Source of the DNA: Candidatus Heimdallarchaeota archaeon
GTDB lineage: Archaea; Asgardarchaeota; Heimdallarchaeia; Heimdallarchaeales; Heimdallarchaeaceae
Direction: 5' to 3'
DNA: 64,000 bases
NCBI GenBank assembly: GCA_016839875.1
Contig: JAEOTK010000002.1
Coordinates: forward strand, 1 to 64,000
The position numbers were made by a program, and so were the translations under genes. The notes beneath the pieces were generated by a model that saw only the letters and a program-made list of their open reading frames with translations, did not search any database and was not told where the DNA came from. This document shows positions 5,831-63,116 of the stretch, in pieces; within the stretch, counting starts at the first letter, position 1, and the number at the start of each line of letters is the position of its first letter.

Positions 5831-7930
5831 TTATGGTTCTAATAACATTCTTAAGCTAACCAAAATTCCATCAATTTCATTTTTCAGTTTTTCAATGGTT
5901 TGTTGTCTTTCGCGGAAAAGTTTTACATAAGATTCTTTTGTCATACTCTTTTTAACTCGATACTCTTGTTGCAGAGTTCTAAGATTGCGTCTTTCTTCGT
6001 ATAACTTCCTTTCTGCAATTTCAATTTTCTGAACTGAATCTTTATATCTTCCACCTTTTTCGACTAGATTTTGTTTAGTCTTCTTTAGAACTTCTTCTTC
6101 AGCTCGTAAACGTTTCTCAAGTTTTGTTCGCAAATCTTTTCCTTCTTTTGCTTTCATTTTCTTAGCAGCAATCTTTGCCCTAGTTTCTCTCAAACGTTCT
6201 CTAATTGAAAGGATTTCCTCATATTGCTTAACGAATTCTTCTATCTCACTTATTGGAATGAATTCTTTTTCTACTTCAACTCCAGCAACATCCTTAACTC
6301 GCTTTGATGACCATCTTATTCCTAAATAGATTGCGAAGATTAAACCAATACCTATAACTTGTAAGAAGTATGTCAACCATAAGTTAAAGGTTGAATAGTT
6401 ATACCTGATAACTAATGGTGCATTATCACTACCTGAGAATTCGTAAGTAGTATATTGAAGTATTCTCTTAAATCCTAAACCTAGAAAGCTAAATTCCTTT
6501 CTGTAATTCATCGACATATCCTGATAGGGATCAGGATTTCTATAATCTGATGAAACAAAAACAGCACCTTTAGGTAGAACAACATCTAAAACTAATTCAT
6601 CAATTGTCCAATTTATAACAGAGCAAGGTTCTAAATTCAATTCATATCTAATTGTTCCTTGTTCTTTTGAAAGAAAGGTATTGAGAGGTGTTTCATATTC
6701 AATTGTGAACGTTAGTTCATCTCCATTAAACAAAGGATAACGCGGAAATATTGCTAAACCTGGATGAAATGGAAAGATACTATCTCTGAGATTGTAAGAA
6801 CCTGCCTCAAATGCTTGTCCTGTTTCATCCTTTTGATAGTCTAAGTTTAGTGAACCTACATTATCTTTTAATGATGTTACTGTTGAATTTGGAGGTAAAA
6901 CTATAGTAAAAGCGTTGAGCGCATATAACTTGAAACTATCCAAGTAATAATTTTCTGGAGCTTCAGGCCCAAGAAAAACTAAATCTTGTTGCTCTGTAAT
7001 CTTTATTATTCCATAAGGATTTACTTCTAACCTACGATAAATCTTTGTTGCTTTAAACAAGACAGCGTTGGTTGCTTCTTCTATTGCTTCATAGGTACTT
7101 ACAGAAGAAGTATAAACATTCATCAATAAATCATCAGCATATGATTGACTATAATTAAAGGCGGCTCTAGAAATATTAGACCATTGCAATGTATCTTGCG
7201 CTGGTTGTAGTAAGAAAGTCAAACCTTCTGTTGCATTTGTAGGTGTTATTGGTCGTTCTTCTGAATCTGAGAACTGATCATTCCCTTGTTTTAAGACAGT
7301 AGTTGTACTATTTACAATTGGAACATTATTGATTAGAGGGTACAATAGTTCCTTATAATGAAGTAGTTGTTCTTGATTTTCAAGAGAAACATTATATGGC
7401 ATAGAGAATTCCAAATACGCACTAATATAGAACAGATCATCTCTTTCTAAACTTGCTAGTGTCTTATTGAAAGGTACGACATATGTTGTATAGTTTAGCA
7501 TTTTGTTAAAAGTATATGTTCTTACTGCGTGAGATTCTAATAATCCTCCAAAAGAATTATTCGATGCCCTAAATGCGACAAAACGCAATTTTTCTATGTT
7601 GATATTAGGTAAAGTATAGTTGAAATATGTGATCGTTTCATTCCCAATAACTTTGAACTCAATGTTATCATGCAATGTTACTATACCATAATGTTCTAAG
7701 ATTATTGTTCTGTTATAAGAAACAGAAGCATTATACTCATAAGCTTCATCAGTGATGTCAGAAAAGCTAAAATCACCTATAGGATTTATGGATTCATCAT
7801 TTATATTCAGTTGTTCATTCTGTTGAAATGTATTTGCATTGCTCTGAGCTATACTAAACACTGCTAAAAAGGATAAACTAACAACAGCTAATAAAGCTAC
7901 AGCAAATATGGTATGTTTGTTTTTTTGCAT
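5831..7930 (-). CDS. Ribophorin I (OST1)-like membrane protein
   Basis: A 699-residue protein with a signal peptide (about 1-30), a large beta-rich ectodomain with many NxS/T sequons, one transmembrane helix (about 516-538) and a long basic coiled-coil cytoplasmic tail. The ectodomain and tail match human ribophorin I by recall: RRLEVNPYGIIKITEQQDL, FPRYPLFNGDELTFTIEY, WTIDELVLDVVLPKGA and LVIRYNYSTFNLWL before the membrane helix, and an ending (ESYVKLFRERQQTIEKLKNEID) that parallels the ribophorin C-terminus. In eukaryotes ribophorin I belongs to the oligosaccharyltransferase complex. Homologues are reported in Asgard archaea. No STT3/AglB gene is present here. A GTG at 7936 is an alternative start. 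Confidence 0.72.
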   Translation of the reverse strand: MQKNKHTIFAVALLAVVSLSFLAVFSIAQSNANTFQQNEQLNINDESINPIGDFSFSDITDEAYEYNASVSYNRTIILEHYGIVTLHDNIEFKVIGNETITYFNYTLPNINIEKLRFVAFRASNNSFGGLLESHAVRTYTFNKMLNYTTYVVPFNKTLASLERDDLFYISAYLEFSMPYNVSLENQEQLLHYKELLYPLINNVPIVNSTTTVLKQGNDQFSDSEERPITPTNATEGLTFLLQPAQDTLQWSNISRAAFNYSQSYADDLLMNVYTSSVSTYEAIEEATNAVLFKATKIYRRLEVNPYGIIKITEQQDLVFLGPEAPENYYLDSFKLYALNAFTIVLPPNSTVTSLKDNVGSLNLDYQKDETGQAFEAGSYNLRDSIFPFHPGLAIFPRYPLFNGDELTFTIEYETPLNTFLSKEQGTIRYELNLEPCSVINWTIDELVLDVVLPKGAVFVSSDYRNPDPYQDMSMNYRKEFSFLGLGFKRILQYTTYEFSGSDNAPLVIRYNYSTFNLWLTYFLQVIGIGLIFAIYLGIRWSSKRVKDVAGVEVEKEFIPISEIEEFVKQYEEILSIRERLRETRAKIAAKKMKAKEGKDLRTKLEKRLRAEEEVLKKTKQNLVEKGGRYKDSVQKIEIAERKLYEERRNLRTLQQEYRVKKSMTKESYVKLFRERQQTIEKLKNEIDGILVSLRMLLEP

Positions 7931-8083
7931 GCTCACAAACCTCGTCTTTTCTAATCTTTGTCTGGAAGAGGAGGAACGATTTTAAATATTTTGGCTTTAA
8001 ATACATTTTATGCTTTTATCAGAATCTGATAGAAAAATAAGATATTTCTGAAATCAAGTAACAGAGATATGCTTTAGTATTGG

Positions 8084-8995: not shown

Positions 8996-11650
8996 ATGAA
9001 GCGTTTTGATGATAGAAAACTTAAGCCAAAATTCACCCCCATGATGCAACAGTGGCAGGATATAAAGAAAGAATATCCAGATTACATACTTTTCTTCAGA
9101 GCTGGTGATTTCTATGAGTGTTTTAATGAAGATGCTAAAACAGCTTCAAAAGTTCTAAACATAACTCTAACAGCTAGAACCTTAGGAGAGAGAAAATTTC
9201 CCCTAGCTGGAGTACCATATCATGCAGTTGACGCATATATCGCGAAAATGGTTGAAAATGGTTACAGAGTAGCTGTTGTTGAACAATTAGAAGATCCTAA
9301 GGTTGCAAAGAAAGTTGTAAAACGAGGAGTTGTGCAACTTGTAACTAAAGGAACAATTACTTTACCTGAATCTCTTTCCAAAGGTCAAAATAATTATCTT
9401 TCTTCAATTTATAAGGAAGGAGACATACTTGGATTTGCAGCTCTTGATTTGTCTACAGGGGAGTTTATTGTTACAGATTTTGAAGGTGAATCAGCTCAGA
9501 ACCTATTAGAGGTTGAATTAACAAGGTTGAATCCATCAGAAATTATCGTCCAAGAACACATATGGACTCAGCTTGGAATTTATCATAATTATCAGAAATG
9601 TACACTAACATTTAGAGACGACTACTATTTTGATATTGAACAAGGACAACAAGAACTTCGTAGGCTCTTTGATGTTTTAAGCTTGGATGGATATGGTGTA
9701 AATGAATTCAATCCATCTATTGGAGCTGCAGGGTCAATTCTTCGTTATATCAAAGAAACGCAAATGAGAGAGAGTTTTCCCAATATCACAAAAATTAGTC
9801 AAATAAGAAGTCAAGATTTCATGGTTCTAGATTTTAGCACTATCAGAAATCTCGAACTTGTAGAGAATTTAAGAGACAGAACAGAATATGGAACTTTACG
9901 GCAGATATTAGATAATACTAAAACACCAAATGGTTCCAGATTATTAACATCCTGGATTCTGAGACCTAGTTTGAATTTGATAACTATTCAAGATAGAATT
10001 TCAGCAACAGAAGAATTAGTTAATGAAACAGTTTCTAGAGAAGAGCTTAGAAACATTCTAGGGAGAATGAATGATATTGAACGCATTACTGGAAGAATAT
10101 GTCTTGGTAGAGGAAAACCTAGAGATCTTATTGCTCTAAGAAACTCTCTGGAATTAATACCAAATATTCGAACTGTTATTTCTAAAACTAAAACATCACT
10201 TCTAAAAGAAGTACATAAGAATCTCAATCCATTGAAAGAAGTAGTTAGTATTATTTTAACAGGAATAGAGGATGAAGTGCCAGCGAGTATCAAGGATGGT
10301 AATGTTATTCGAGATGGTTATAATTCCGAATTAGATGACTTAAGGAAAATTCAGAGAAATGGGAAGTCTTTTCTTACTTCTTTGGAAGCTAGAGAGAAAG
10401 TTAAAACAGGGATAAAAACACTCAAGGTTCGCTTCAACAAGGTTTTTGGTTATTATATTGAAATTCCAAAAGCATCCTCAGAAAATGTTCCCGATGATTA
10501 TGAAAGAAAACAAACATTAGTAAACGCAGAGAGATTCATTACATCAGAACTTAAAGACTATGAAGAAAAGATTCTAAACGCAGAGGAGAAAATCGAGAAA
10601 TTAGAAGAAGAATTATTCATCAATATCATGATTGAAATCGCTCAGTATGCCACAGATATTCAACAAGATGCATATTACATCGCAATTTTGGATGTAATAG
10701 CTACTTTTTCTCAAAATGCATCATATTTCAATTATTCAAAACCAGAGATTACTGAAGATAATTTTATAGAAATAAAAGAAGGTCGCCACCCAGTTGTGGA
10801 AAGATTATTGGCGGAAACATCTTTTATACCAAATGATATAATAATCAAAAAAGATGCAGAAAGAATACTGATTATTACTGGACCCAATATGGGAGGTAAG
10901 AGTACTCTACTCCGACAAGTTGCATTGATAGTTCTTATGGCTCAAATTGGTAGTTTTGTACCCGCAAGTTCAGCTACAATTGGTTTAACTGATAGAATAT
11001 TCACAAGAATTGGTGCTCATGATGTACTTGTAGAACATAGATCTACATTCATGGTTGAGATGTATGAATGTGCTAATATTCTGAATAATGCAACAGAGAA
11101 AAGCCTTGTAATCTTGGACGAAGTTGGTAGAGGAACTTCCACTTATGATGGGGTCGCAATAGCATGGTCAATCACAGAGTACCTCCATAACCATATAGGT
11201 AAAGTTGGTCCTAGAACTCTATTTGCTACACATTATCACGAATTAATAGAATTAGAAGATAGACTCTCTCAAGTTAAGAACTATCATGTTTCTGTGAAAA
11301 ATGTAAACGGGGAAATTCATTTCCTTTACAAACTCAAAGAAGGAGGAATTAGTGAGAGTTTTGGTATTCACGTTGCTTCATTAGCAGGTTTGCCTAAAGA
11401 CGTAATTGATAATGCAGATGAAATGATGGCATTATTACACAAAGGAGAATTGGAAAATGAAATTTCACTGAAGAAAGATACAAAAGAACAAGTAGCTGCT
11501 AAAGCTCAAACCTCTGTTGCAATCAAAAAATACGAAAAGTTTTTTGATGAAATAAAAGAGTTAGATTTAGAAGCAATAACTCCTATTGATGCTATGAATA
11601 TTCTTAACGAACTTGTTAAGAAAAGTAAAAAAGTTCTGAAAGATAAATAG
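8996..11650 (+). CDS. mutS: DNA mismatch repair protein MutS (bacterial MutS1 type)
   Basis: A full-length 884-residue MutS. The N-terminal mismatch-reading domain carries GDFYECF, with the Phe-x-Glu pair at about F39 and E41 that inserts at a mismatch. Connector, lever and clamp domains follow. The ATPase domain has Walker A TGPNMGGKST (about 628-637), LVILDEVGRGTS (Walker B and signature) and the FATHYHEL motif. This is the repair-type MutS1, not the MutS2/MutS5 family found in many archaea. Most archaea lack it, so lateral acquisition from bacteria is likely. It is followed by mutL after 49 bases. Confidence 0.95.
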   Translation: MKRFDDRKLKPKFTPMMQQWQDIKKEYPDYILFFRAGDFYECFNEDAKTASKVLNITLTARTLGERKFPLAGVPYHAVDAYIAKMVENGYRVAVVEQLEDPKVAKKVVKRGVVQLVTKGTITLPESLSKGQNNYLSSIYKEGDILGFAALDLSTGEFIVTDFEGESAQNLLEVELTRLNPSEIIVQEHIWTQLGIYHNYQKCTLTFRDDYYFDIEQGQQELRRLFDVLSLDGYGVNEFNPSIGAAGSILRYIKETQMRESFPNITKISQIRSQDFMVLDFSTIRNLELVENLRDRTEYGTLRQILDNTKTPNGSRLLTSWILRPSLNLITIQDRISATEELVNETVSREELRNILGRMNDIERITGRICLGRGKPRDLIALRNSLELIPNIRTVISKTKTSLLKEVHKNLNPLKEVVSIILTGIEDEVPASIKDGNVIRDGYNSELDDLRKIQRNGKSFLTSLEAREKVKTGIKTLKVRFNKVFGYYIEIPKASSENVPDDYERKQTLVNAERFITSELKDYEEKILNAEEKIEKLEEELFINIMIEIAQYATDIQQDAYYIAILDVIATFSQNASYFNYSKPEITEDNFIEIKEGRHPVVERLLAETSFIPNDIIIKKDAERILIITGPNMGGKSTLLRQVALIVLMAQIGSFVPASSATIGLTDRIFTRIGAHDVLVEHRSTFMVEMYECANILNNATEKSLVILDEVGRGTSTYDGVAIAWSITEYLHNHIGKVGPRTLFATHYHELIELEDRLSQVKNYHVSVKNVNGEIHFLYKLKEGGISESFGIHVASLAGLPKDVIDNADEMMALLHKGELENEISLKKDTKEQVAAKAQTSVAIKKYEKFFDEIKELDLEAITPIDAMNILNELVKKSKKVLKDK

Positions 11651-11699
11651 TAATAAGTACTATAAGAGTTTCAGGAAATTATAAATTGTCTGTGATTTT

Positions 11700-13523
11700 A
11701 TGAATTCAAAGATAATTAAGTTAGATAAACTTACAATCAACAAAATTGCAGCTGGAGAGGTTATTGAACGTCCAGCCTCAGTTGTAAAAGAATTAGTTGA
11801 AAATTCTATTGATGCTGGAAGTAGCAGTATCTTCATCAATATTCAGGAAGGAGGAACTAAACTAATCGAAATTATAGACGATGGTGCAGGGATGAATCAG
11901 GATGAGGCACTACTTTCAATTAATAGATACACTACAAGTAAATTAGGAAACGCAGATGATCTTTTTTCAATACAAAGCTTAGGATTTCGAGGAGAAGCTT
12001 TAGCTAGTATAGTCAGTGTTGCTCAAACTGAGATAATCACAAAAACACCCAATCAAGAACTTGGAACCCACTTGATCATTGAAGGTGGAGAAATCCAACT
12101 AAATGAACAAATATCTTCCCCTAATGGGACCAAAGTTTTGGTAAGAAATCTCTTCTTCAATGTTCCAGTAAGAAGGAAATTTCTTAAAACAACAACTACT
12201 GAGGTAAATCACATCACAGAGTATGTAACAAAACTAGCTCTTTCAAATCCTACAATATCCTTTTCTCTAAAGCACAATGATAAAAATCTTCTAACTGCAC
12301 CTAAAGGAGACTTGATTTCTAAAATTACAGCCATTTTTGGAGAAAACATAGCTAAAGCTTGCATTCCTATAGAAATGAACGAAAATGGATATGAGGTTAC
12401 TGGATTTATTACAAAACCAGAGTTTTCAAGAAAATCTAGAGATTATCTTTATACTTTTGTTAATTTTAGAGCTGTACAAAATAAAACAATATCTGATGCT
12501 GTATTAAGAGGATACGGGACTTCAGTTCCCCATGGCAGATTTCCAATCATTTTCCTCTATCTGAATTTACCTTCAAATGAAGTAGATGTTAATGTTCATC
12601 CTACAAAGAAAGAAATCAGATTTAGCAATGATTCCAAAGTATTTACTTTGATCGAAACTTCAGTAAGAGAAGCATTAGAAAATAGTGGTTTGAAAATTTT
12701 CGAGAAAACTGCTGAAACAAGATATAAACCTACAACATTAGAATCTAGATATACAAGCAAAACTAAAGTAGAAACTGGAAAATCAACTCCAGCACCAACC
12801 GAATCAAAACTACCTCTGAAAACAGATTTTCAAGTAATAAGAAGTAGAGAACAGAGCATAGATAAATTCCTTCCAGAAAGCTCCAAAAGCACATTACAGA
12901 TAGACGAAACGTTGGAAAGAAAGAAACGTATATCAGTTTTGGGAATCATAAAAGACACATATATTATCGCTGAGACTGAAGAAGGGTTATTTCTATGTGA
13001 CCAACATGCAGCTCATGAAAAGATAAACTATGTTAAATATGTTGAACAGCTGAAACGAAAGAAAGTTAACATTCAGCAACTGCTTGGACCGATATCTATT
13101 TCTCTTAAACCTTCAGAGTTTGAGCTAATAGAGGAACTTAAAGAAATCTTGAAATCATATGGGTTTGAAATTGAAGTTTTTGGGAAAAACGAGATTGTAA
13201 TAAGATCAATACCATCAATCATGGGAGTTACAATCGAATATAAATTAGCAAGAGATATAATCGATATCTTCAAAGAAAATGTTTCAGAGATAAAGGAAAA
13301 ACTAGAAATTGAAGATTTGAATTTCATTAAAGACATAATATCAATATTTGCCTGTAGAAGGTCAATAAAAGCTGGTGATAAGATAACAAAGGAACAAGCA
13401 GAGGAATTATTGAAAGATCTCTTAGCTCTTAAAGATCCCTTTACCTGCCCTCATGGTCGTCCAACTATTATTATATTAAACGATGATTATATAGAAGAGT
13501 TGTTTCAAAGAGATTACAGATAG
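11700..13523 (+). CDS. mutL: DNA mismatch repair protein MutL (endonuclease-type C-terminus)
   Basis: A 607-residue MutL. The GHKL ATPase motifs are intact: ELVENSIDAG, DDGAGM and GFRGEAL in the first 110 residues. A variable linker spans about 335-410. The C-terminal domain has DQHAAHE (about D434-E440), ACRRSIKAGD (about 551) and CPHGRP (about 583-588), which are the motifs of nicking MutL proteins. The usual second Glu of the DQHA(x)2E(x)4E motif is Val here (V445), so metal binding may differ. It works with MutS to nick the mispaired strand. The two genes are adjacent and co-oriented. Confidence 0.95.
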   Translation: MNSKIIKLDKLTINKIAAGEVIERPASVVKELVENSIDAGSSSIFINIQEGGTKLIEIIDDGAGMNQDEALLSINRYTTSKLGNADDLFSIQSLGFRGEALASIVSVAQTEIITKTPNQELGTHLIIEGGEIQLNEQISSPNGTKVLVRNLFFNVPVRRKFLKTTTTEVNHITEYVTKLALSNPTISFSLKHNDKNLLTAPKGDLISKITAIFGENIAKACIPIEMNENGYEVTGFITKPEFSRKSRDYLYTFVNFRAVQNKTISDAVLRGYGTSVPHGRFPIIFLYLNLPSNEVDVNVHPTKKEIRFSNDSKVFTLIETSVREALENSGLKIFEKTAETRYKPTTLESRYTSKTKVETGKSTPAPTESKLPLKTDFQVIRSREQSIDKFLPESSKSTLQIDETLERKKRISVLGIIKDTYIIAETEEGLFLCDQHAAHEKINYVKYVEQLKRKKVNIQQLLGPISISLKPSEFELIEELKEILKSYGFEIEVFGKNEIVIRSIPSIMGVTIEYKLARDIIDIFKENVSEIKEKLEIEDLNFIKDIISIFACRRSIKAGDKITKEQAEELLKDLLALKDPFTCPHGRPTIIILNDDYIEELFQRDYR

Positions 13524-52936: not shown

Positions 52937-54742
52937 TTATTCTCGGAAAAATGGCTTACGAATATTTTTCTTTGCCAGCTCAACAATTTTATTTGCGATT
53001 TCTTCGTTAACTGAAAGAAGCTTCTGTATATCTTCAACAGAAGCAGTTGAAATATTATTAACGTCTTTGAACTCTTGGAAAAGAAGCTGAACTTTCGCTT
53101 TACCAATACCTTTGATATTTTCAAATATTGAGCTTTTCATTGATTTCAATCTCAATAATTTGTGATAATTTATTGCAAATCTATGTGATTCATCTCTTAC
53201 ATACTGAATCAGATGTAATATTGGCGAATCCCGCTCAAAGATTAAAGGATCTTCAGACCATTCAACAAATACTTCTTCATTCTTCTTTGCTATGCTTATA
53301 ACAGGGAATGATAATTGCAATTTTTCAAAAACTTGTTTTGCTACATTGAGCTGCCCTTTTCCTCCATCAATAATGACTAAATCAGGTAGAGGATCGTTCT
53401 TTAAAACATCTGATTTGTATCGTCTAGATACAACCTCTTCCATCATAGCATAATCATCAGGATCTGAATAAGATTTCCTTATTCTAAATCGTCTATATAA
53501 TTTCTTTTGTGGTTTTCCTTCTTCAAAAACAACACAAGAACCTACAGAAAATTGTCCCTTAAGTGTTGAAATATCAAATCCATGGATAATATTTGGATTA
53601 TTAGGTAGCTGTAAATCTTCTTTCATCTCTTCTAATACTACTTCTGAGCTTTCTTTGTACTGTTTATCTCGTAGAAGTTTCATTAATTCATTGCAAGCAT
53701 TTTTCTCTGCTACTTTAACTAAAATCTCATCAGTTTCTTCTTCAATTTGAAGAATCGAAATACCTTCGGTTGATTTGAATCTTCTTGAGAAACTATCATT
53801 TGATAGAACACCATATTCGGGTATTTCTTGACCATATACCAGAGTAAAAACTTCCCCTACTGTGGTAATTGATTCTTCTTCTGTGTAGACATGATTCTTG
53901 ATGTTCTGAACTCTGTGATTGCGTATTTCTAATTTACAAATTACTATATCGTGTTCTTCTTCATTATACCCCAATATATCGATATTTTTCTTAGTGGAGT
54001 GTATATCCTCTTGAATATTCAAAATTGTTCTTACAGCTTGAACTAAATCACGAAGCATTGAAGCTTTCTCGAAATTCGATTCTTCGGAAGCTATCCACAT
54101 TTCTTTTTCTAGATTATCCAACAAATTAGCGACATCGCCATTGAGGAAAGAAATCACATTTCTTGCAGTTTTTCTGTATTCTCTTGATGTAATATCGTTT
54201 TTACATGGAGCTAAACATCTTCCTAATCTTTCTCGCATACACCTTACTTTGGTTCCTCTTTTTCGCATAAGTTCAACATTTTTACCACAATTACACAGTG
54301 GAAAAAGCCTAAGTGCCAATTTAGCAGTTTGTCTTAACATTGTATTATTTGTAAAAGGACCGAAATAGACACTCTTTTCATTTCTTGGATCAGTTTCTCT
54401 AACAATCAATAGCTGTGGGTATTTCTCCTCCATGGTTATTCGGATGAGAAGATGAGATTTATCATCCTTTAACATACTATTTAGTTTTGGAGATAGTTGA
54501 TGGATGAGTTTCTTTTCAAGAATTAGTGCTTCTGATTCATTTCTTGTTAAAATCCAATCCACTCTTGTTGCTAATTCTTGTAGTTTATCTTCCTTAGGAT
54601 GTGCAGTACTTTGAAAATGTTGTCTCACGCGATTTTTCAGATTTTTAGCTTTACCCACGTAAACTACTTTATCATCTTTATCTTTGACAAGATAGACTCC
54701 AGGTTCATTTGGCAAATCCTCTAAATCTGATAGAAGACTCAT
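52937..54742 (-). CDS. uvrC: Excinuclease ABC subunit C
   Basis: A 601-residue UvrC. The GIY-YIG nuclease domain opens the protein (EPGVYLVKDKDDKVVYVGKAKNLKNRVRQHF). The central UvrB-binding domain (EKASMLRDL) and an RNase-H-like endonuclease with HGFDISTL and VIIDGGKGQLN follow. A C-terminal tandem helix-hairpin-helix (NIKGIGKAKVQLL, about 555-598) ends it. It makes both incisions in nucleotide-excision repair. The ATG at 54742 follows the uvrB stop by one base; a longer frame overlaps uvrB. No uvrA is in the window. Confidence 0.93.
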   Translation of the reverse strand: MSLLSDLEDLPNEPGVYLVKDKDDKVVYVGKAKNLKNRVRQHFQSTAHPKEDKLQELATRVDWILTRNESEALILEKKLIHQLSPKLNSMLKDDKSHLLIRITMEEKYPQLLIVRETDPRNEKSVYFGPFTNNTMLRQTAKLALRLFPLCNCGKNVELMRKRGTKVRCMRERLGRCLAPCKNDITSREYRKTARNVISFLNGDVANLLDNLEKEMWIASEESNFEKASMLRDLVQAVRTILNIQEDIHSTKKNIDILGYNEEEHDIVICKLEIRNHRVQNIKNHVYTEEESITTVGEVFTLVYGQEIPEYGVLSNDSFSRRFKSTEGISILQIEEETDEILVKVAEKNACNELMKLLRDKQYKESSEVVLEEMKEDLQLPNNPNIIHGFDISTLKGQFSVGSCVVFEEGKPQKKLYRRFRIRKSYSDPDDYAMMEEVVSRRYKSDVLKNDPLPDLVIIDGGKGQLNVAKQVFEKLQLSFPVISIAKKNEEVFVEWSEDPLIFERDSPILHLIQYVRDESHRFAINYHKLLRLKSMKSSIFENIKGIGKAKVQLLFQEFKDVNNISTASVEDIQKLLSVNEEIANKIVELAKKNIRKPFFRE

Positions 54743-54743
54743 T

Positions 54744-56714
54744 TCATTCCACCATTTTTTCAAGTTCTTTTATTTTATCTCGATAGATTGCAGCTTTCTC
54801 AAAATCCAGTGTACCTGCTGCTTCTGCCATTTTTGTTTTGAGATCTTCTATAACATAGAAAATATCTTCTTTGGTCAGATCTTCAGGTACTACGATTTTT
54901 TCTTCTTCTTTGGGTGCTACTTGCATCAAATGCTCTACTATTGATTTAACTTCCTTCCTTATTGTTGTAGGAGTAATTCCGTGTTTTGTGTTGTAATCTT
55001 GTTGAATTCTTCTCCTTCGATTATTCTCATTGATAGCGTTTTTCATTGAATCTGTTAGACTATCAGCATAAAGTATAACGCTTCCATGAACATTTCGACT
55101 AGCTCTCCCCATCAATTGAATAAGAGATGTTCTAGATCTAAGAAAGCCTTCCTTATCCGCATCTAATACAGCTACAAGAGCCACTTCTGGAAGATCTAAA
55201 CCTTCTCTTAAAAGATTGATTCCTACAACCACATCATATTTTCCTAATCTCAAATCCTTTAGTATATCAATTCTATCTAATGTATCTACTTCGTGATGTA
55301 AATATACTGACTTTATCTGCATATCAAGAAGGTAATCTGATAGCATCTCTGCACTTTGCTTAGTTAATGTGGTTACTAAGACTCTTTCACCTTTGTTTAC
55401 CCGCTGATTAATCTCACTTACTAAACCAGTAATTTGTCCATCAGTATTTCTAATTTCAATTTTAGGATCAATCAATCCTGTAGGACGAATGATTTGTTCA
55501 ACAATCTGATCTGAGAATTCATGTTCATAAGGACCAGGAGTTGCACTAGTGAAAATTACTGCTCTCATATATTTCTCAGTTTCCTCAAATCTGAAAGGTC
55601 TATTATCGAAAGCAGAAGGCAGCCTGAAACCATAATCAATTAGATTCTTCTTTCTTGAATAATCTCCAGCATACATTCCTCTCAATTGTGGAAGAGTTAA
55701 ATGAGATTCATCAACAAAAAGCAAGAAATCTTCAGGAAAATGATCAAGCAGAGTGTATGGTTTTTCTCCCTGTTTTCTTCTATCTAGGTGACGAGAATAA
55801 TTCTCTATTCCAGTACAACCACCCGTCTCTCTTAATAATTCTAAATCATAAAGAGTCCTTTGTCTTAATCTATGCCTTTCGACAACCTTGTTTTCTTTCT
55901 CTAGTTCAGCTAAACGCATATCTAGTTCTATTTTGATATCTTCAAGAGCTGATTCAAAGAAAGCGTCATTTGCGAGATACTGAGTTCCAGGATAGATAGA
56001 TAGATGCTCATATTCTTTTATCTTTTCAACAGTAACCTGATGACGAGCAGTTATTCTTTCAATTTCATCTCCAAAGAACTCAACACGATAGATATAATCA
56101 CCATATAAGGGGAAGATGTCAATAGAATCACCCCTTACTCTGAAGCACCTACGTTCGAGAGCAACATCATTTCTCTGATATTGATTCTTAACTAATTCTA
56201 ACATCATATCTTGTCTATCAAGTGTGTCTCCAATGGTTAAGCCAATCTTTTTTGATCTGTACATCTCAGGAGAGCCTGTGCCATAAATACATGATACAGT
56301 AGCACAGACTATAACATCATCACGTGTAGATAGAGCTTCTAAAGCTGTGTGCCGTAAGCGTTCAATTTCCCGGTTTATATCTACATCTTTCTCTATGTAT
56401 AAATCCTTAGACGGCAGATAAGCTTCAGGCTGATAATAATCATAAAAACTAACATAATAATTAACACTAGCTGAAGGAAAGAGTGTTTTGAACTCCCCAA
56501 AAAGTTGAGCCACCAATGTTTTATTTGGTCCTATAATCAACGTGGGTTTTTTGATGCCATCTATTACATTAGCCATTGTAACAGTTTTTCCACTGCCTGT
56601 AACACCAAGAAGCGTTTGTTTTTTATGTCCTTTCTTAATTCCCTCTATCAATTGCTTTATCGCTTTAGGCTGATCTCCTCTTGGTTTTAGAATTGTATCA
56701 ATATCTAAGGGCAT
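54744..56714 (-). CDS. uvrB: Excinuclease ABC subunit B
   Basis: A 656-residue UvrB helicase-like damage-verifying subunit. Walker A GVTGSGKTVT, the YVSFYDYYQPEAYLPS beta-hairpin region, VDESHLTLPQLRGMY, GINLLREGLDLPEVALV and LMGRASRNVHGSVILYAD are in order. The C-terminal UVR motif (LDFEKAAIYRDKIKELEKM) binds UvrC. It acts with UvrA (elsewhere) and UvrC. Only some archaea carry UvrABC, generally by transfer from bacteria. The upstream region has a long inverted repeat. Confidence 0.95.
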   Translation of the reverse strand: MPLDIDTILKPRGDQPKAIKQLIEGIKKGHKKQTLLGVTGSGKTVTMANVIDGIKKPTLIIGPNKTLVAQLFGEFKTLFPSASVNYYVSFYDYYQPEAYLPSKDLYIEKDVDINREIERLRHTALEALSTRDDVIVCATVSCIYGTGSPEMYRSKKIGLTIGDTLDRQDMMLELVKNQYQRNDVALERRCFRVRGDSIDIFPLYGDYIYRVEFFGDEIERITARHQVTVEKIKEYEHLSIYPGTQYLANDAFFESALEDIKIELDMRLAELEKENKVVERHRLRQRTLYDLELLRETGGCTGIENYSRHLDRRKQGEKPYTLLDHFPEDFLLFVDESHLTLPQLRGMYAGDYSRKKNLIDYGFRLPSAFDNRPFRFEETEKYMRAVIFTSATPGPYEHEFSDQIVEQIIRPTGLIDPKIEIRNTDGQITGLVSEINQRVNKGERVLVTTLTKQSAEMLSDYLLDMQIKSVYLHHEVDTLDRIDILKDLRLGKYDVVVGINLLREGLDLPEVALVAVLDADKEGFLRSRTSLIQLMGRASRNVHGSVILYADSLTDSMKNAINENNRRRRIQQDYNTKHGITPTTIRKEVKSIVEHLMQVAPKEEEKIVVPEDLTKEDIFYVIEDLKTKMAEAAGTLDFEKAAIYRDKIKELEKMVE

Positions 56715-56885: not shown

Positions 56886-57152
56886 ATGGCTATATCAACA
56901 AGAACCGGACAAATACAGCTCATTATACAGGATAATAAACCCCTTCACAAAAGGAGAGCTCTAAATTTAATTGAATCAACAAAAATTAAAGATAGAATGA
57001 TGGGATATGCTCTTCTAACTACTTGTTTCTACTATTGCTCATACGATACTCAAAATTATATACGCAAAAAATGGAAAGAAGAAACAAATCTAAAGAAAAT
57101 GAAAAAGAGTTTTTTAAATCACTGCTCAAAAATTTTTCTTCAACATTATTGA
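56886..57152 (+). CDS. Small hypothetical protein, convergent with HEAT gene
   Basis: An 88-residue helical protein (HKRRALNLIESTKIKDRMMGYALLTTC) with basic C-terminal half. It has a TATA-like box at proper distance and overlaps the stop of the HEAT-repeat gene tail to tail by seven bases. I do not recognise it. The rest of the interval has no better frame. It could be a small partner of the adjacent operon or a chance frame. Confidence 0.35.
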   Translation: MAISTRTGQIQLIIQDNKPLHKRRALNLIESTKIKDRMMGYALLTTCFYYCSYDTQNYIRKKWKEETNLKKMKKSFLNHCSKIFLQHY

Positions 57153-57922
57153 TCTAATTCAACATCTATAGGAAAATAGAGAGGGAATATTAATCGTGCA
57201 AAATTTTGGTATATTTCAGCACTATAATCCTTCTTCTCAATCAACCCTTCTAGTTTTACTATTTCTGATTCATTATATCCTTTCATTTTAGGAAATGAAG
57301 TAGAATCACCATAATCAAGGATTTTACAAATTTGTTCTCCTAGTGCTTTTAACTCAAGATAGGCTTCTATAATTATATGAATGTGAGGTGTTAATTCTTC
57401 CAATTCTTTTTCTTTATTAATGGAATTTGATATACGGATTACAGAAAGAATTGCAGCTCGTCTTGTTATGTAGTCCTTTGCATAAACCACATTTTTTAGA
57501 GGATATAACACATCAGAATCATCGAGATATCCAATTGCTCTAATTGCGGCATATTGTAAATCATAATCACTTTCTTCCAATATCTTAACTAGATATGGTT
57601 TAGATGCATAATCTTTCAGATGTCCCAAAACTTCCAGAATTGATAATTTGATAGCTAATGATCGTTTTTCCAGTAAATCATGTAAATGGGTTAAAGTTTT
57701 GTCTTTAATCTCTGGAAATCTATTGTTGAGATTTATAATTGCAGAAGCTGCAGCATTTCTAACATTCCAATCTGGATCCTCAATAAGAGGATAGATTTTT
57801 GCAAGGTCTTTAGCTTTCCCTGTTCGTTCTGTAAAAATTGAATAATAAGCACGCTCTAGAGGATCGTCACTTTTTGCTTTTTTTCCAATAGAAAGCTTTC
57901 GAAAGAAATCTAATAAACTCAT
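57146..57922 (-). CDS. HEAT-repeat protein
   Basis: A 258-residue protein. From about 40 to 175 it holds four HEAT-type helix pairs (DPDWNVRNAAASAIINL, KRSLAIKLSILEVLGHL, ESDYDLQYAAIRAIGYL, KDYITRRAAILSVIRI), each about 32-38 residues and carrying the usual D-x-x-VR/A-x-x-A pattern. The tail (about 180-258) is helical but not repeated. HEAT arrays bind proteins or nucleic acids as scaffolds. It is the last gene of the operon, overlapping the 524-residue protein gene by four bases. Confidence 0.8.
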   Translation of the reverse strand: MSLLDFFRKLSIGKKAKSDDPLERAYYSIFTERTGKAKDLAKIYPLIEDPDWNVRNAAASAIINLNNRFPEIKDKTLTHLHDLLEKRSLAIKLSILEVLGHLKDYASKPYLVKILEESDYDLQYAAIRAIGYLDDSDVLYPLKNVVYAKDYITRRAAILSVIRISNSINKEKELEELTPHIHIIIEAYLELKALGEQICKILDYGDSTSFPKMKGYNESEIVKLEGLIEKKDYSAEIYQNFARLIFPLYFPIDVELDQ

Positions 57923-59493
57923 AATTCATACATCCCTTCTTTTATTAAGTAGGCAATTGCTCTTCTCTGAGGTTGAGTGAGTTTTTTTAGGAAAGTATAA
58001 TCAACCATACTTACATCAAATTTCTCTTCTTTTTCTTCATCTAAATCAAATTTGTATGCATCCTTTCTTTTTGTAACCTGAACTGCTCGTGTTATTACCG
58101 GAATGTTGTACGGGGAGAGAGGTTGATGTTTAGTTTTATGAACAGCAAACAAAGTCGAAACATGAATTCCGCCTATTTTTTTGAATATGATTACATCAGC
58201 GAAAGCTGGTAAAATAGTCTTGAAATCATCTCTATAAAGAGCCATATGATTGTGAAGTATTAGAAGCTGATCAATTCCAACACCATAATCATTGACTTCG
58301 AAAACATATACTTTCTTTTCATCAACTTTGACATACCCTTTACTAGAAATTCTAGGCTTGTCATCTAATAATTGACCAAAAGTCGAATACTTTCTTCTAT
58401 ATACTTTTCTAGTATATTCTTCAATTAATCGCCAACCATAAGCGTAAACTGACCATATATCAGTCCATCTACTATTTGATGAATGCCATGTCTCTACAAC
58501 ACTTTCAGAATGAAGATTCTTATTTACAGCTAGTAATTCTTTGACTTCATCCCAAGAAAGCTCCTCTAACATCTCATAATCAGATTTGTAGGAGAATAAT
58601 TTTTCGAATAACTCGTTTTCATTTTCATATTTAGTAACTAACTTATTCATTACAGCAAGACCAAACTCACCAATTGGTGGAGCCATAAAAGCTTTCAAAT
58701 CATCCGGAAATATGGGAGCTTTATCTTCATCCTTCTTTGGTAAAGTATATTCCTTAGTCTCGAGGAGATAGTCAATTTCTTTTCTTTGAATATAATGTGC
58801 AAAACTTTCATCAATCAAATCATGAAGATGCTTTCTTCGGGCTACTTTAGCTCTTTCTCTTATTAGAGTGATGGCTTCTATTGAGAAGTTGTTGAACAAA
58901 GTATATTTTCTGGCTTCTTCTGGAGGAGTATAGAAATCTTCTACACCTGCTTCAGAAAATAATCTAATAACACCAATTAAGTCCTGAAAATACTGCCAAG
59001 CCCATACATGCTGGTTGGTAGATGTCTTATTTAATTTGTAGACATTGTTTGTCATCAGTTCTTTTAGAATAACATCCAATTGGTATAATTTGGATAAGGT
59101 TGCTACAGAATTAGATTCAGTTTTTTCATTCATGAGTGCATGAGCGAGAGCATGAACAAACATAACTCGTAAAGTAAACTCTTGTTCTTTAGATAACTCA
59201 TAAGATGGAACAGAAAGATAGATCAACGTTGGAAGTGAGTTATAAACTGTTTCTTTCCCTGTTGGAAGAAAATCACTTATTCTAGCAGATTTCAGGTTAG
59301 TAATTTGCTCAGAAGTAAGAATGGCTTGAGGTGTTCCAGTCATTTCTACAACTCGATTAACTGAAACATGCATTTCTGGATTAACAAAAAGTAATATTCT
59401 GTAATTCTCAGGAGTTGTACCAACTAGCTTTTGGAAATCCTCTCTGGATTTTTTATAAACTTCAATTACTTCTGTTAGCTCTTCTTTAAGCAT
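57919..59493 (-). CDS. Large protein with degenerate zincin-like motif (HALAH)
   Basis: A 524-residue protein with no recognised family. A zincin-like pattern MFVHALAHAL lies at residues 111-120, with the HExxH Glu replaced by Ala (H114, H118). LIDESFAHYIQRKEIDYLL lies downstream. Long helices with heptad-type patterns fill about 125-330. The C-terminal part (about 380-500) is alpha/beta. It would not be a working zinc protease by this motif. Its stop and start overlap neighbours by four and eight bases, so it is translated with VWA and HEAT proteins. Confidence 0.7.
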   Translation of the reverse strand: MLKEELTEVIEVYKKSREDFQKLVGTTPENYRILLFVNPEMHVSVNRVVEMTGTPQAILTSEQITNLKSARISDFLPTGKETVYNSLPTLIYLSVPSYELSKEQEFTLRVMFVHALAHALMNEKTESNSVATLSKLYQLDVILKELMTNNVYKLNKTSTNQHVWAWQYFQDLIGVIRLFSEAGVEDFYTPPEEARKYTLFNNFSIEAITLIRERAKVARRKHLHDLIDESFAHYIQRKEIDYLLETKEYTLPKKDEDKAPIFPDDLKAFMAPPIGEFGLAVMNKLVTKYENENELFEKLFSYKSDYEMLEELSWDEVKELLAVNKNLHSESVVETWHSSNSRWTDIWSVYAYGWRLIEEYTRKVYRRKYSTFGQLLDDKPRISSKGYVKVDEKKVYVFEVNDYGVGIDQLLILHNHMALYRDDFKTILPAFADVIIFKKIGGIHVSTLFAVHKTKHQPLSPYNIPVITRAVQVTKRKDAYKFDLDEEKEEKFDVSMVDYTFLKKLTQPQRRAIAYLIKEGMYEL

Positions 59494-60871
59494 ATAGAAT
59501 ACTCTCCCTTAATATCTGCTCGCCCAGTTTATTGATTTGAGCAGGATCAATTAGTATAGGTTTCGTTATTCCTTTCAGCATTCTTTTGGTATGACTGTAC
59601 AATTCTTTCTTTCGTAAAGCTTCTGTACCCATAAGGAAGTAAGAGATATTCCAATTTCGAGACTTATCATTCTTCAAACTACTGAAAATACCATTCAATT
59701 GAACCAAACACTCAATAGTGTCAGGTTTAGTCTTTGTATCTATCTCATCAAAATATTTCTTTAAATCTTTACTAGTTTTGTAACTCAAAGGTAGAGCTGG
59801 AACATTTGGCATCCCATCAGTAATAATGGTAAATTGGACATCTATATCTTTATCTAAGTGTTGTTTTTTCGCATGTTCTATTGCGGTTAACACACTTTGT
59901 ACCATATAGGTCTTACCTCTTGCATCAGCTGTCAGAAGTAATTGTTCCATTTTTTTGTCATCGTCAATAACACTAGGACCTTTTCTAATAGGAACAACGG
60001 CAAGCTTGAACATGTCATATCTTTTTCGTTTCCTTCTGTTCAGCATTTTGAAATAATAGTATAGACTTAAACTGGTTAATAAAGCACCATCTAACCTAGA
60101 CATTTTTCCTTCAAAAACAGTTTTACTCATTGATTGACTCATATCTACAATAAGGTAGACTAAAGATCTACGATCTTTCTTAACTCGGACAATATCTTCT
60201 TGTCTTACTGCAGTTGGAGGAACTGTTTGAGAACCAAGTATCGCACTTCTGTAAGTTTCTTTTAGTCTAATTGTACCACTTAATCTCTTCTGAACTTCAT
60301 CTATTGGAGCCACAGAAATTTGCTTCATCAGATATCTACCAAGTATTTTACCTAGAAGATCCATGACATTTTCACGAGAAATTCTTTTCTTTCTACCAAA
60401 AGCATCTGTAATTTCAATGTCTACTATATCTTTTAGTTGATTAAGTCTCTCTGCCAATTGTTGTAAATCAATAGTACCTTCATATTTTAATTCCCTAAGG
60501 AGTTCTTGGATGTACTTTAGTATATCTTCAACCGTCTGAAGTTCATTACGATTTACTCGTTCTAAAACATCAGGTAAAATATGATCTCCAATGAATCGAA
60601 GAAGCTTCAACTCATTTACTAATCGCTCCTCTTCTTCAGCTGTTAAATAAGTATTCATAATTTTCTGAAGTATATTGTCTATGGCTACAGCATTCTTTGA
60701 AGCAATAGAAATTACTGCACCCTCTCGAGAACTTCGTCCTAGATGAGGATTCCTCCATAGTCGCAATACTTGCGCAGCATCCTCAAAATCTAGTACGAAT
60801 TCGACATCACCATAATGTTGTAGAGGATCAGTGAATTCTGTTTCTGTTATGAAGAATATTCGATGTGGCAT
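59486..60871 (-). CDS. VWA-domain protein (CoxE/YeaH-like) with intact MIDAS
   Basis: A 461-residue protein. The N-terminal half (about 1-230) is helical, with a variable charged region. The VWA domain spans about 235-445, with MIDAS motif DMSQS (about D243), a downstream Thr in ARGKTY (about T321) and ITDGMPN (about D352), all present. These residues bind a divalent metal and a partner acid. VWA proteins are the usual partners of MoxR-type AAA+ ATPases; its gene follows one here with a 37-base gap. The exact partner of the MIDAS is unknown. Confidence 0.85.
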   Translation of the reverse strand: MPHRIFFITETEFTDPLQHYGDVEFVLDFEDAAQVLRLWRNPHLGRSSREGAVISIASKNAVAIDNILQKIMNTYLTAEEEERLVNELKLLRFIGDHILPDVLERVNRNELQTVEDILKYIQELLRELKYEGTIDLQQLAERLNQLKDIVDIEITDAFGRKKRISRENVMDLLGKILGRYLMKQISVAPIDEVQKRLSGTIRLKETYRSAILGSQTVPPTAVRQEDIVRVKKDRRSLVYLIVDMSQSMSKTVFEGKMSRLDGALLTSLSLYYYFKMLNRRKRKRYDMFKLAVVPIRKGPSVIDDDKKMEQLLLTADARGKTYMVQSVLTAIEHAKKQHLDKDIDVQFTIITDGMPNVPALPLSYKTSKDLKKYFDEIDTKTKPDTIECLVQLNGIFSSLKNDKSRNWNISYFLMGTEALRKKELYSHTKRMLKGITKPILIDPAQINKLGEQILRESILYA

Positions 60872-60908
60872 ATTATCAACTCATCTGAGAGGGTTTTGTT
60901 GTTCAAAC

Positions 60909-62459
60909 TTAGATGTAATCTACTTTGAGTAACTGTTCATATGAAGGTTTGAGCTCTTCAACGATTTTTGCTCTAAGGTCTTCTTTGATTTTATCCAGTC
61001 CTTCGAATCGAACTATCAATTGAGTTAGTTCTTCATCACTTAGTGCTTTCATTTTTGAGATGTCTTCAGAGATATCTTGAACGCTAATAGATACTTCAGA
61101 TTCTTTAATTGATGTTCTCAACAAAATCTTAATCTGTTGAAGGGCATCATTTAACATTGAAACTGGAATATCATACGCATTCATTGTGTTTCTCATTCTC
61201 TCTAATGTGATCACATTAATGCCATCTTCTACTGCTTCTCTAGTTTGAAGTATTACTGTTTCTCCAATTATGTTATTCATCGTACGAAGATCGATATGTG
61301 GATTTCTTTGTGGATCATGAATTTCATCAAGACCTGAATAAAAATCATTTCTCTCCACACGGCTTTCTGAACGCATTCCTTTAGTTTTCAAAGTTCCTGG
61401 TAAAGAATTATTCCCCAAGAAAGCTAGAAAGTCAACTGCTAAGCGACTCACAAAGTCAGTTACTTCTTTTTCTAGTTCATGTAATTGAATGATTGAAGGA
61501 TTAGCAGTTATTTTCTTACTAGAAAGCACTATTTGTTCTTCAAACATATCTCTAATAATTTGTTCTCTGCTCTCAACTGAACGTGCAGGCCAAAGTACTT
61601 CAGGGATACGGTTAATAATTGGCTGGCTTTCCTCACCAAATACTGTCAAAGGGGCATTTGAAGTGAATAGAACTGCTCCATCTATGTATACAGGTTCTCC
61701 TTGGATGTTGTATTTAATTACCATTGGTTCTTCAAGAAAACCCATTAAGGATTCAAGAAGCGTTAATGGCAATCTTTGAATTTCGTTAACTACAATGAAA
61801 CCATGAGAAAGGACTCCCACTTTGTGTGATGTTGCTGCATATGTTGTAGAGGTGCCTTTACCGAAGAGTTCTTCTAAGTTTTCAACTCCTGCTAAGAGCA
61901 TAGAAAGACTCTCAGGGTCTGTTCTTGGATCTAATTGAGATCTACGAACAAGAGTTTTTTGTGATTTAAGCTTTCCTAATCGATTAGCAATCTCTTTTGG
62001 AGGTATAGCTAAAATACTATTAGTATTATCAAGTTGTACTTGATTGTTATCTTCAGATAAAATTTTCTCAATATTTTCTCTACAATATGGACATAGAGAT
62101 TGCATTACTCTAATACCAGCAAAAGGATTTGCAGCAAATTGGTTAATTACATCAACGATGTATCCTGCATCTTCTAGGAAGGGACAGCCATCAATATGGT
62201 ATTTGAAATTGTTTATCTCTCTAACAACGTGATCTAAAAGTATTCGAGCAAATAGAGTTTTAGCTTCACCAGTTGGTCCTGTAAGTAGAACTTTTCCTCC
62301 TACAGCTAATTTATCCATTACTAGATTCTTACCAACTTGGTTTCCTCTAACACTTACATCTTGTAAAACTCTCGCGCGAAATTCTTCGTTCATTAGGATG
62401 GAACGTACAGAAAAACCGTCATATCCATCTTTCATTAATTTTTGTATTGTGAGTGTCAT
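60909..62459 (-). CDS. AAA+ ATPase of the PrkA/MoxR type with Zn-ligand insertion
   Basis: A 516-residue AAA+ ATPase. Walker A is GPTGEAKT (about 61-68). A cysteine insertion follows (C92 in DGCPF, C123 and C126 in CPYC), like the zinc-binding insertion of PrkA (YeaG). Walker B is GFIVVNEIQRL, with Asn225 in place of the usual Asp and Glu226 kept, then LFTSN as sensor 1 (about N268). The kinase domain of PrkA is absent. It likely remodels a partner bound by the VWA protein. The gene lies 29 bases after the pseudo-GTPase gene. Confidence 0.82.
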   Translation of the reverse strand: MTLTIQKLMKDGYDGFSVRSILMNEEFRARVLQDVSVRGNQVGKNLVMDKLAVGGKVLLTGPTGEAKTLFARILLDHVVREINNFKYHIDGCPFLEDAGYIVDVINQFAANPFAGIRVMQSLCPYCRENIEKILSEDNNQVQLDNTNSILAIPPKEIANRLGKLKSQKTLVRRSQLDPRTDPESLSMLLAGVENLEELFGKGTSTTYAATSHKVGVLSHGFIVVNEIQRLPLTLLESLMGFLEEPMVIKYNIQGEPVYIDGAVLFTSNAPLTVFGEESQPIINRIPEVLWPARSVESREQIIRDMFEEQIVLSSKKITANPSIIQLHELEKEVTDFVSRLAVDFLAFLGNNSLPGTLKTKGMRSESRVERNDFYSGLDEIHDPQRNPHIDLRTMNNIIGETVILQTREAVEDGINVITLERMRNTMNAYDIPVSMLNDALQQIKILLRTSIKESEVSISVQDISEDISKMKALSDEELTQLIVRFEGLDKIKEDLRAKIVEELKPSYEQLLKVDYI

Positions 62460-62488
62460 AGTTCGACCTCTTTTATTTTTATTCTACT

Positions 62489-63079
62489 TTATGTTGTCGT
62501 TTCTGAAACTATTTGAACTTGTTTTTTTCTTACTTTTTCTAATAGTTTTTCTTTTTCTTCCCAAGACTTAACATATCCCATATGAACTACTCGTTTAATC
62601 CACTTCATTGCGGTTGTTAAATCACCAACTTCAGGTGTTTCAAATAAACTCCAAAGTCTATCTGTAAGACGAATTAGAGAAAGATTTTCAATTAATTCAC
62701 CTCGTGTTAAAGCTCCTTGAAGATTCGAATTGTATGCGCAGACAGCTATTGGTAAATTGGCAGTTTCCTTGTCCCAGATTATTTTTTCCCAGAAATAGTT
62801 TCTTTCATGTTTAATCATATCTTCTTCAGTTGCGTCTATAAGGTAAAGAATACCTTCAAATGGAACAAACTGATTTGGCTTGAATTTAAATTTAGTAGAG
62901 TATGGTAATTCAACGAGTAAATCATCTATGATGAATTCATCAAGAGATGTATTTGATCTTATTAACAGAACTCGGTTGCGTGTAGCGGGATTATTGTTAC
63001 CCATAATTAGCATTGATACCTCTGGGTAACCTAGTTTTCTACGAATGGAGTGGATAAAGTTCTGAACAAAGTTAGTCAT
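62489..63079 (-). CDS. Arf-like small-GTPase-fold protein without nucleotide-binding motifs
   Basis: A 196-residue protein. Residues 110-165 align by eye with Arf GTPases: LPIAVCAYNSNLQGAL stands where Arf has a NKQDL-GA motif, ENLSLIRLTDRLWSL matches the following helix, and TTAMKWIKRV the final helix; FVPFEGILYLIDATEED matches the strand after switch II. The P-loop position (GNNNPATRNR, about 27-36) has lost GKT, the Asp of NKxD is Asn and the switch II DxxG is not seen. It is probably a pseudo-GTPase. It heads a five-gene operon. Confidence 0.68.
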   Translation of the reverse strand: MTNFVQNFIHSIRRKLGYPEVSMLIMGNNNPATRNRVLLIRSNTSLDEFIIDDLLVELPYSTKFKFKPNQFVPFEGILYLIDATEEDMIKHERNYFWEKIIWDKETANLPIAVCAYNSNLQGALTRGELIENLSLIRLTDRLWSLFETPEVGDLTTAMKWIKRVVHMGYVKSWEEKEKLLEKVRKKQVQIVSETTT

Positions 63080-63106
63080 TGGGGTTCGCTAAGGAGCATC
63101 TTTTTG

Positions 63107-63116
63107 AATATTTAAG
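63107..63116 (-). promoter_or_regulatory. TATA-like box of the pseudo-GTPase/AAA+/VWA operon
   Basis: On the minus strand CTTAAATATT lies about 28-37 bases ahead of the ATG at 63079, so the transcript would start within about ten bases of the start codon. No Shine-Dalgarno-like sequence precedes the ATG, consistent with a leaderless or very short-leader message. The promoter would drive all five genes. Confidence 0.45.

Follow-up and report, generated by a model that had tools for sequence, protein, structure and literature searches.

The window analysed here is a stretch of 64,000 nucleotides from a Candidatus Heimdallarchaeota archaeon (positions 1 to 64,000 of contig JAEOTK010000002.1), and the subject of this study is an operon of five minus-strand genes at positions 57146-63079. 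In order of transcription they encode an Arf-like protein without GTP motifs (pseudo-Arf), an AAA+ ATPase (AAA), a protein with a von Willebrand factor A (VWA) domain, a degenerate zincin-like protein (P4) and a HEAT-repeat protein. We consider it slightly more likely than not that this operon, which most of the genomes sampled from a single Asgard class carry, is a diverged PrkA-YeaH-SpoVR triad to which two non-enzymatic subunits, pseudo-Arf and the HEAT protein, have been added. With P4 read as the counterpart of SpoVR, the middle three of the five genes match the known triad. The original prediction, made from the sequence of the window, had known of no described system of this composition; this is not supported for the AAA-VWA-P4 core, which most likely corresponds to the prkA-yeaH-spoVR triad. 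It had also named three additions to the known set. Pseudo-Arf and the HEAT protein remain additions, while the protein with the HALAH motif (P4) is most likely the SpoVR/YcgB counterpart itself.

The operon is real and old. Its reading frames are separated by gaps of 29 and 37 bases and then overlap by 8 and 4 bases, exactly as predicted, and a divergent NUDIX gene upstream and a small convergent open reading frame (ORF) downstream show that the five genes form one directon. We assessed linkage in those loci whose contig reaches far enough. VWA followed AAA in 39/39 loci, P4 was in place in 33/33 and HEAT in 31/31, and pseudo-Arf lay directly upstream of AAA in 32/39; the genes do stay together in Asgard lineages, which the original prediction had proposed to check. 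In the seven exceptions the genome always keeps pseudo-Arf elsewhere (7/7), within about 10 kb in four and on another contig in three. Gene order is kept across 40 loci, indicating that the arrangement is not due to chance. Judged from dN/dS values of 0.02-0.12, all five genes are under strong purifying selection (four pairs for pseudo-Arf, AAA and VWA, three pairs for P4 and HEAT); several dS values exceed 1, and the ratios are hence rough.

Of the 58 genomes in the class to which Heimdallarchaeum endolithica belongs, the genome scan found AAA in 40; over the phylum the figure was 40/227, and hence 0/169 outside the class. A class-wide operon was dropped because 18 genomes of the class have no AAA. 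VWA was found in exactly the 40 genomes having AAA, and P4 in the same 40, with three weak partial matches elsewhere (E about 1e-4). Each of the 40 carries a single AAA copy, one of which is split across two contigs. The loci are titled Heimdallarchaeota, with one Kariarchaeota and some just 'archaeon' or 'Asgard group archaeon'. Protein searches retrieved 30 relatives of P4 and at least 105 of AAA; the labelled ones were Heimdall-type or other Asgard archaea, including one Thorarchaeota for P4, and one Thorarchaeota and three Hodarchaeota or Promethearchaeota for AAA. A word-limited search of proteins that started from the P4 alignment brought up no further P4 relatives. In the mostly open-access literature searched, no paper combined Heimdallarchae-, AAA+ and VWA, and none combined PrkA, SpoVR and YeaH; for SpoVR with zincin or metalloprotease, Asgard with MoxR or von Willebrand factor, and Asgard with Arf, none of the matches listed concerned the operon in its title or the start of its abstract.

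The Asgard operon shares with the PrkA/YeaG-YeaH/YhbH-SpoVR/YcgB triad the order of an AAA gene, a VWA gene and a third gene for a protein of about 500 aa on one strand. The order prkA-yeaH/yhbH-spoVR was seen in five bacterial records with annotation (Sinorhizobium, Legionella, Mesorhizobium, Thermomicrobium and Pontibacillus). A spoVR gene in third place after PrkA-type and VWA genes is common, not universal, as other arrangements exist, and PrkA and SpoVR are also found in Haloferax and phages. When the 1316 ORFs in the 40 loci were searched with bacterial and phage triad profiles, the cognate gene came first for two of the three: the PrkA profile found the operon AAA in 39 of its 47 matches at E<=1 (best 1.7e-8), and the SpoVR profile found P4 in 20/20 matches (best 0.001). 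The best triad profile in hhalign was PrkA for AAA, at 95.9% and then 96.6%, where archaeal zinc-ribbon AAA proteins score as well and the values stand without a sound MoxR profile control (the 'mox' alignment of 12 loci, several frames of which are probably not MoxR, was unused). It was SpoVR for P4 (22.0%) and YeaH for VWA, the latter at just 25.6% and then 55.4% with a second YeaH set including three phage genes that are YeaH-like at E 1.7e-44 or better. Single-sequence hhalign comparisons with E. coli YeaG, RavA, YehL, YeaH, ViaA, YehP, YcgB, YehM and YehQ were too weak to be decisive, the best being AAA-RavA at 34%. The Asgard operon differs from the triad in that its AAA has no PrkA C-terminal kinase-like domain, P4 lies below Pfam SpoVR detection, and the pseudo-Arf and HEAT genes are added.

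The profile matches support placing AAA in the zinc-ribbon MoxR/PrkA clade, in keeping with the PrkA/MoxR type first proposed. Residues K67, E226 and N268 are invariant in 28 sequences, and Asn225 replaces the Asp of the Walker B motif in 28/28. A conserved CP...CPxC insertion, whose cysteines C92, C123 and C126 are each at least 90% conserved, resembles that of archaeal zinc-ribbon AAA proteins; their profile matched the operon AAA at 97.1% (E 4.9e-11) and ranked one non-operon ORF above it. PF08298, the PrkA AAA domain, gave a weak match in 1/28 AAA members (0.0058) and no PrkA in a scan of three Heimdall genomes; its phylum scan recovered other AAA genes in 9/40 operon genomes and the operon AAA in none. 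The PrkA C-terminal kinase-like domain had no Pfam match at 0.01 in 28 members, which agrees with a length of 516 aa against about 640. Zinc-ribbon AAA+ genes that are PrkA-related by profile were also observed in other Asgard genomes (loci L090-L092, L106 and L107), and in L090-L092 two AAA+ frames adjoin each other.

The VWA protein has a conserved N-terminal region and a C-terminal VWA domain. Its metal ion-dependent adhesion site (MIDAS), DxSxS-T-D, is intact, with D243, S245, S247, T321 and D352 invariant in 22 sequences, and the metal site originally predicted is thus present. Among the same 22 members, Pfam reported VWA_2 in 16 (not in the window's own protein) and VWA_CoxE in 4 (best 1.9e-4); DUF444 (YeaH/YhbH) was not among the best 25 of 26 Pfam families at E<=1. 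The fifth gene encodes HEAT repeats, as expected. Searching PDB sequences with the profiles of AAA, VWA and P4 yielded no useful match.

Most probably, P4 is a SpoVR that has diverged very far, and the homology, drawn from profiles and motifs, is of moderate strength. Its likeness to SpoVR profiles ranged from 4.6 to 77.9% depending on the alignment, with His-x3/4-His and NEG[WF]A in register; the top value, against SpoVR plus Asgard gluzincin-motif proteins, had a score of 50.1, and 60 column shuffles reached <=23.6. SpoVR itself matched the Asgard gluzincin-motif proteins at 96.8% (E 2.2e-10). The His-x3-His and NEG(W/F)A motifs of SpoVR are resembled in P4 by HALAH and DESFA. The degenerate zincin-like character noted earlier was supported: the structure model placed gluzincin-type peptidases top among PDB chains (M32, M1, collagenase and M61 nearest) and the catalytic Glu after His114 was found in 0/34 P4 sequences. 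His114, His118 and Glu229 occur together in 23/34, and 10 of the 11 sequences without His118 are also without Glu229, a co-loss that carries no weight as a statistical test, the sequences being related to one another. The pattern fits one putative non-catalytic metal site whose residues were lost together in some branches of the tree. By eye, no link was seen between ligand loss and relocation of pseudo-Arf. PF04293 (SpoVR) had no match at E<=1 in 15 P4 members, which lie below the curated cut-off, and its scan found no SpoVR in any of the 40 operon genomes. The sole P4 match in BFVD below 1e-3 was a 617-residue protein, the same length as SpoVR of Thermus phage phiLo, and tblastn of P4 against phages gave nothing meaningful.

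Two further sets of genes related to SpoVR were observed. Asgard open frames of about 1300 aa (L083, L084, L085 and L087; genomes G176, G177 and G179) carry an intact gluzincin-type HExxGH ... NEGFA, and the C-terminal part of their proteins matches SpoVR, making them candidate active SpoVR relatives. Canonical SpoVR lies on contigs of the Asgard-phylum bins G055 (L081, L086, L089 and L105) and G098 (L082), and PrkA in G055, which belongs to the same class and has no operon; these contigs could be bacterial contamination or transfer.

By both fold and sequence, the first gene is derived from an Arf/Ras-type G domain of the Arf family. The window's protein matches Pfam Arf (4e-6), its profile found Plasmodium Arf1 in PDB (E 1.8e-12), and its structure model has the Arf fold, in agreement with the original prediction. 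The P-loop GxxxxGK[ST] occurs in 0/29 pseudo-Arf sequences (27 distinct genes), and the DxxG and NKxD positions are substituted in the alignment, as judged by eye. Aligned positions were used because the bare NKxD string gives false matches, appearing elsewhere in the chain in 4/29 sequences. Pseudo-Arf resembles Arf/Arl GTPases, including Asgard ArfR (HodArfR1 and GerdArfR1), in fold and sequence, most clearly over its second half, and differs from them in having no P-loop in 27 distinct sequences and in a shortened segment before the fourth strand, from which the interswitch toggle was probably lost. Like Arf/Arl GTPases, the window's pseudo-Arf family has an N-terminal helix (residues 2-15), which is basic; it is absent in the L032-L038 clade. 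The helix moment exceeded about 68 to 98% of shuffles in 12 sequences of the window's family, and that of a genuine Asgard Arf only about half. These values are only suggestive of membrane anchoring through an amphipathic helix. In Heimdallarchaeum endolithica, a 312-aa Arf-like GTPase with an intact P-loop and a long C-terminal extension (L016:3488-4426; Pfam Arf 3.8e-35) sits about 5 kb upstream of pseudo-Arf.

By analogy with systems studied elsewhere, we infer that the operon encodes a remodeller that is driven by ATP and docks through non-enzymatic subunits. The MoxR motor NorQ turns its VWA partner NorD via a finger in the pore (PMC13036017; PMC9976466). NorQ-NorD, CbbQ-CbbO, RavA-ViaA and CoxD-CoxE share with the Asgard operon this motor-adaptor logic and a C-terminal VWA with MIDAS, with a weak match to CoxE; the Asgard operon adds a third, fourth and fifth subunit and the zinc-ribbon-like insertion of AAA. 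If the five proteins assemble, the AAA+ ring would burn ATP to turn or pull the VWA protein, which would sit in the pore of the ring, and the MIDAS metal would grip an acidic site belonging to either P4 or a client. The gluzincin-like fold of P4, perhaps holding metal and unable to cut, may serve to present or recognise the client, which P4 would handle together with the HEAT protein as scaffold. Pseudo-Arf, having no nucleotide switch, could provide constitutive docking; its target may be membranes, reached via the basic helix of the window's family. The dynein light intermediate chain offers an analogy, with no homology claimed, as it is likewise described as a non-switching G domain docking in an AAA+ machine (PMC4359372); it is eukaryotic and Ras/Rab-related, unlike pseudo-Arf. 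The role would probably be to reshape a target under starvation or stress, as for E. coli YeaG and YeaH, which act jointly in nitrogen starvation and have been termed a metabolic brake (PMC4664914, PMC10954441). A Bacillus PrkA assayed in vitro showed negligible activity as a kinase or a protease (PMC13001217). The fuller proposal, that a Heimdall-type Arf-lineage G domain lost its GTP switch and became fixed with HEAT as a docking subunit of a membrane- or complex-anchored AAA+/VWA/SpoVR remodeller, is tentative, and we lean against it as a whole.

Other explanations were weighed against the diverged triad. It is doubtful that the operon encodes a chaperone dedicated to maturation, like those of the NorQD/CoxDE/CbbQO kind. 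On this view AAA+ and VWA would open up a single enzyme so that a metal or cofactor can be inserted, with P4 as carrier or sensor of the metal. The VWA_CoxE matches, the intact MIDAS, the retention of all three ligands in most P4 sequences and the metal insertion by twisting described for NorQD (PMC13036017) would suit such a chaperone. Metal ligands are incomplete in 11/34 P4 sequences, however, and no adjoining client enzyme gene is common to all clades, the commonest non-core neighbours among the 40 loci being a NUDIX gene (20), uvrB (13) and uvrC (13). NorQD-type systems are not known to include a part resembling SpoVR or Arf, which also counts against it. That the genes, as one transcription unit, do not encode one machine is likewise doubtful; AAA, VWA and P4 would then work together, and pseudo-Arf and HEAT would act elsewhere. 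The seven relocated pseudo-Arf genes speak for this, but all seven genomes keep the gene, and HEAT follows P4 wherever the locus can be evaluated.

It is unlikely that P4 shares no ancestry with SpoVR and is a zinc protein that came to the zincin fold by convergence. Its model lies nearest to peptidases and its labelled relatives in plain sequence searches are all Heimdall or other Asgard archaea, yet P4 lacks the catalytic Glu throughout, SpoVR profiles rank it first of 1316 ORFs, and its place in the operon is that of spoVR. SpoVR is also without the catalytic Glu, and P4 shares the HxxxH spacing with Thermomicrobium and Pontibacillus SpoVR. That the operon is a MoxR-vWA ternary system of defence or biological conflict (VMAP, iSTAND and FtsH classes; Kaur et al. 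2020) is very improbable. The core logic is the same, as a MoxR-type AAA+, a vWA and a third conserved protein are combined there too (PMC7159879), but the effectors and variable modules of those systems, and any STAND or FtsH part, were not seen among the five genes. PADLOC gave only a weak TRIP13 match for AAA (1.4e-4) and HEAT-type matches for the HEAT protein (1.1e-6 and 2.4e-4). No Pfam or PADLOC match hints at VMAP (VMAP-C) in the operon proteins, with no dedicated VMAP model run. One AAA per genome, a fixed order and low dN/dS are also unlike fast-changing conflict systems.

The features of the operon are collected in the table. The TATA-like box proposed earlier as promoter was located, and boxes resembling TTAAATATT precede pseudo-Arf in several of 16 relatives (by eye). 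The leader just before the pseudo-Arf ATG (window 63080-63094) is TTTAGCGAACCCCA-like; it is strongly conserved in L001, L009, L012, L017, L020 and L039 and, by eye, more so than DNA further upstream. Elsewhere in the window lie a uvrC-uvrB repair pair (52937-56714; uvrB is downstream of the operon in 12 of the 13 loci having it), a mutS-mutL repair pair (8996-13523) and a minus-strand homologue of ribophorin I, an oligosaccharyltransferase subunit (5831-7936, E 5e-21). No tRNA genes were found in the 64-kb window.

Table. Positions in the window of the five genes, their motifs and the promoter element.
Feature	Position	Strand	Remark
TATA-like box TTAAATATT	63107..63115	-	36 to 28 bases ahead of pseudo-Arf ATG
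Pseudo-Arf, 196 aa	62489..63079	-	
AAA+ ATPase, 516 aa	60909..62459	-	
Walker A GPTGEAKT, AAA residues 61-68	62256..62279	-	
Zinc-ribbon-like cysteines C92, C123, C126 of AAA	62082..62186	-	each at least 90% conserved, 28 sequences
VWA protein, 461 aa	59486..60871	-	
MIDAS DxSxS (D243, S245, S247) of VWA	60131..60145	-	
P4 (third protein, counted from AAA), 524 aa	57919..59493	-	
HALAH, P4 residues 114-118	59140..59154	-	HExxH-like, Ala replaces catalytic Glu; aligns with SpoVR AHxxxH stretch
DESFA, P4 residues 228-232	58798..58812	-	counterpart of SpoVR NEGWA and gluzincin NEGFA; E229 probable third metal ligand
HEAT-repeat protein, 258 aa	57146..57922	-	

These findings tie an orphan Asgard operon to the PrkA-YeaH-SpoVR triad, which is widespread in bacteria and of unknown mechanism. 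SpoVR gains a probable fold class, gluzincin-like and catalytically dead, which makes it testable; if this is true, SpoVR would be explained as a pseudo-peptidase presenting clients to the PrkA motor. Active Asgard Arf proteins, for which structures have been solved, attract interest as forerunners of vesicle traffic, and here, in archaea close to the root of eukaryotes, an Arf-family protein appears as a part that does not switch. If the reading holds, a eukaryote-type traffic module would have been joined to a bacterial-type stress machine, and a pseudo-enzyme of the Arf family would have become built into a motor of prokaryotic type.

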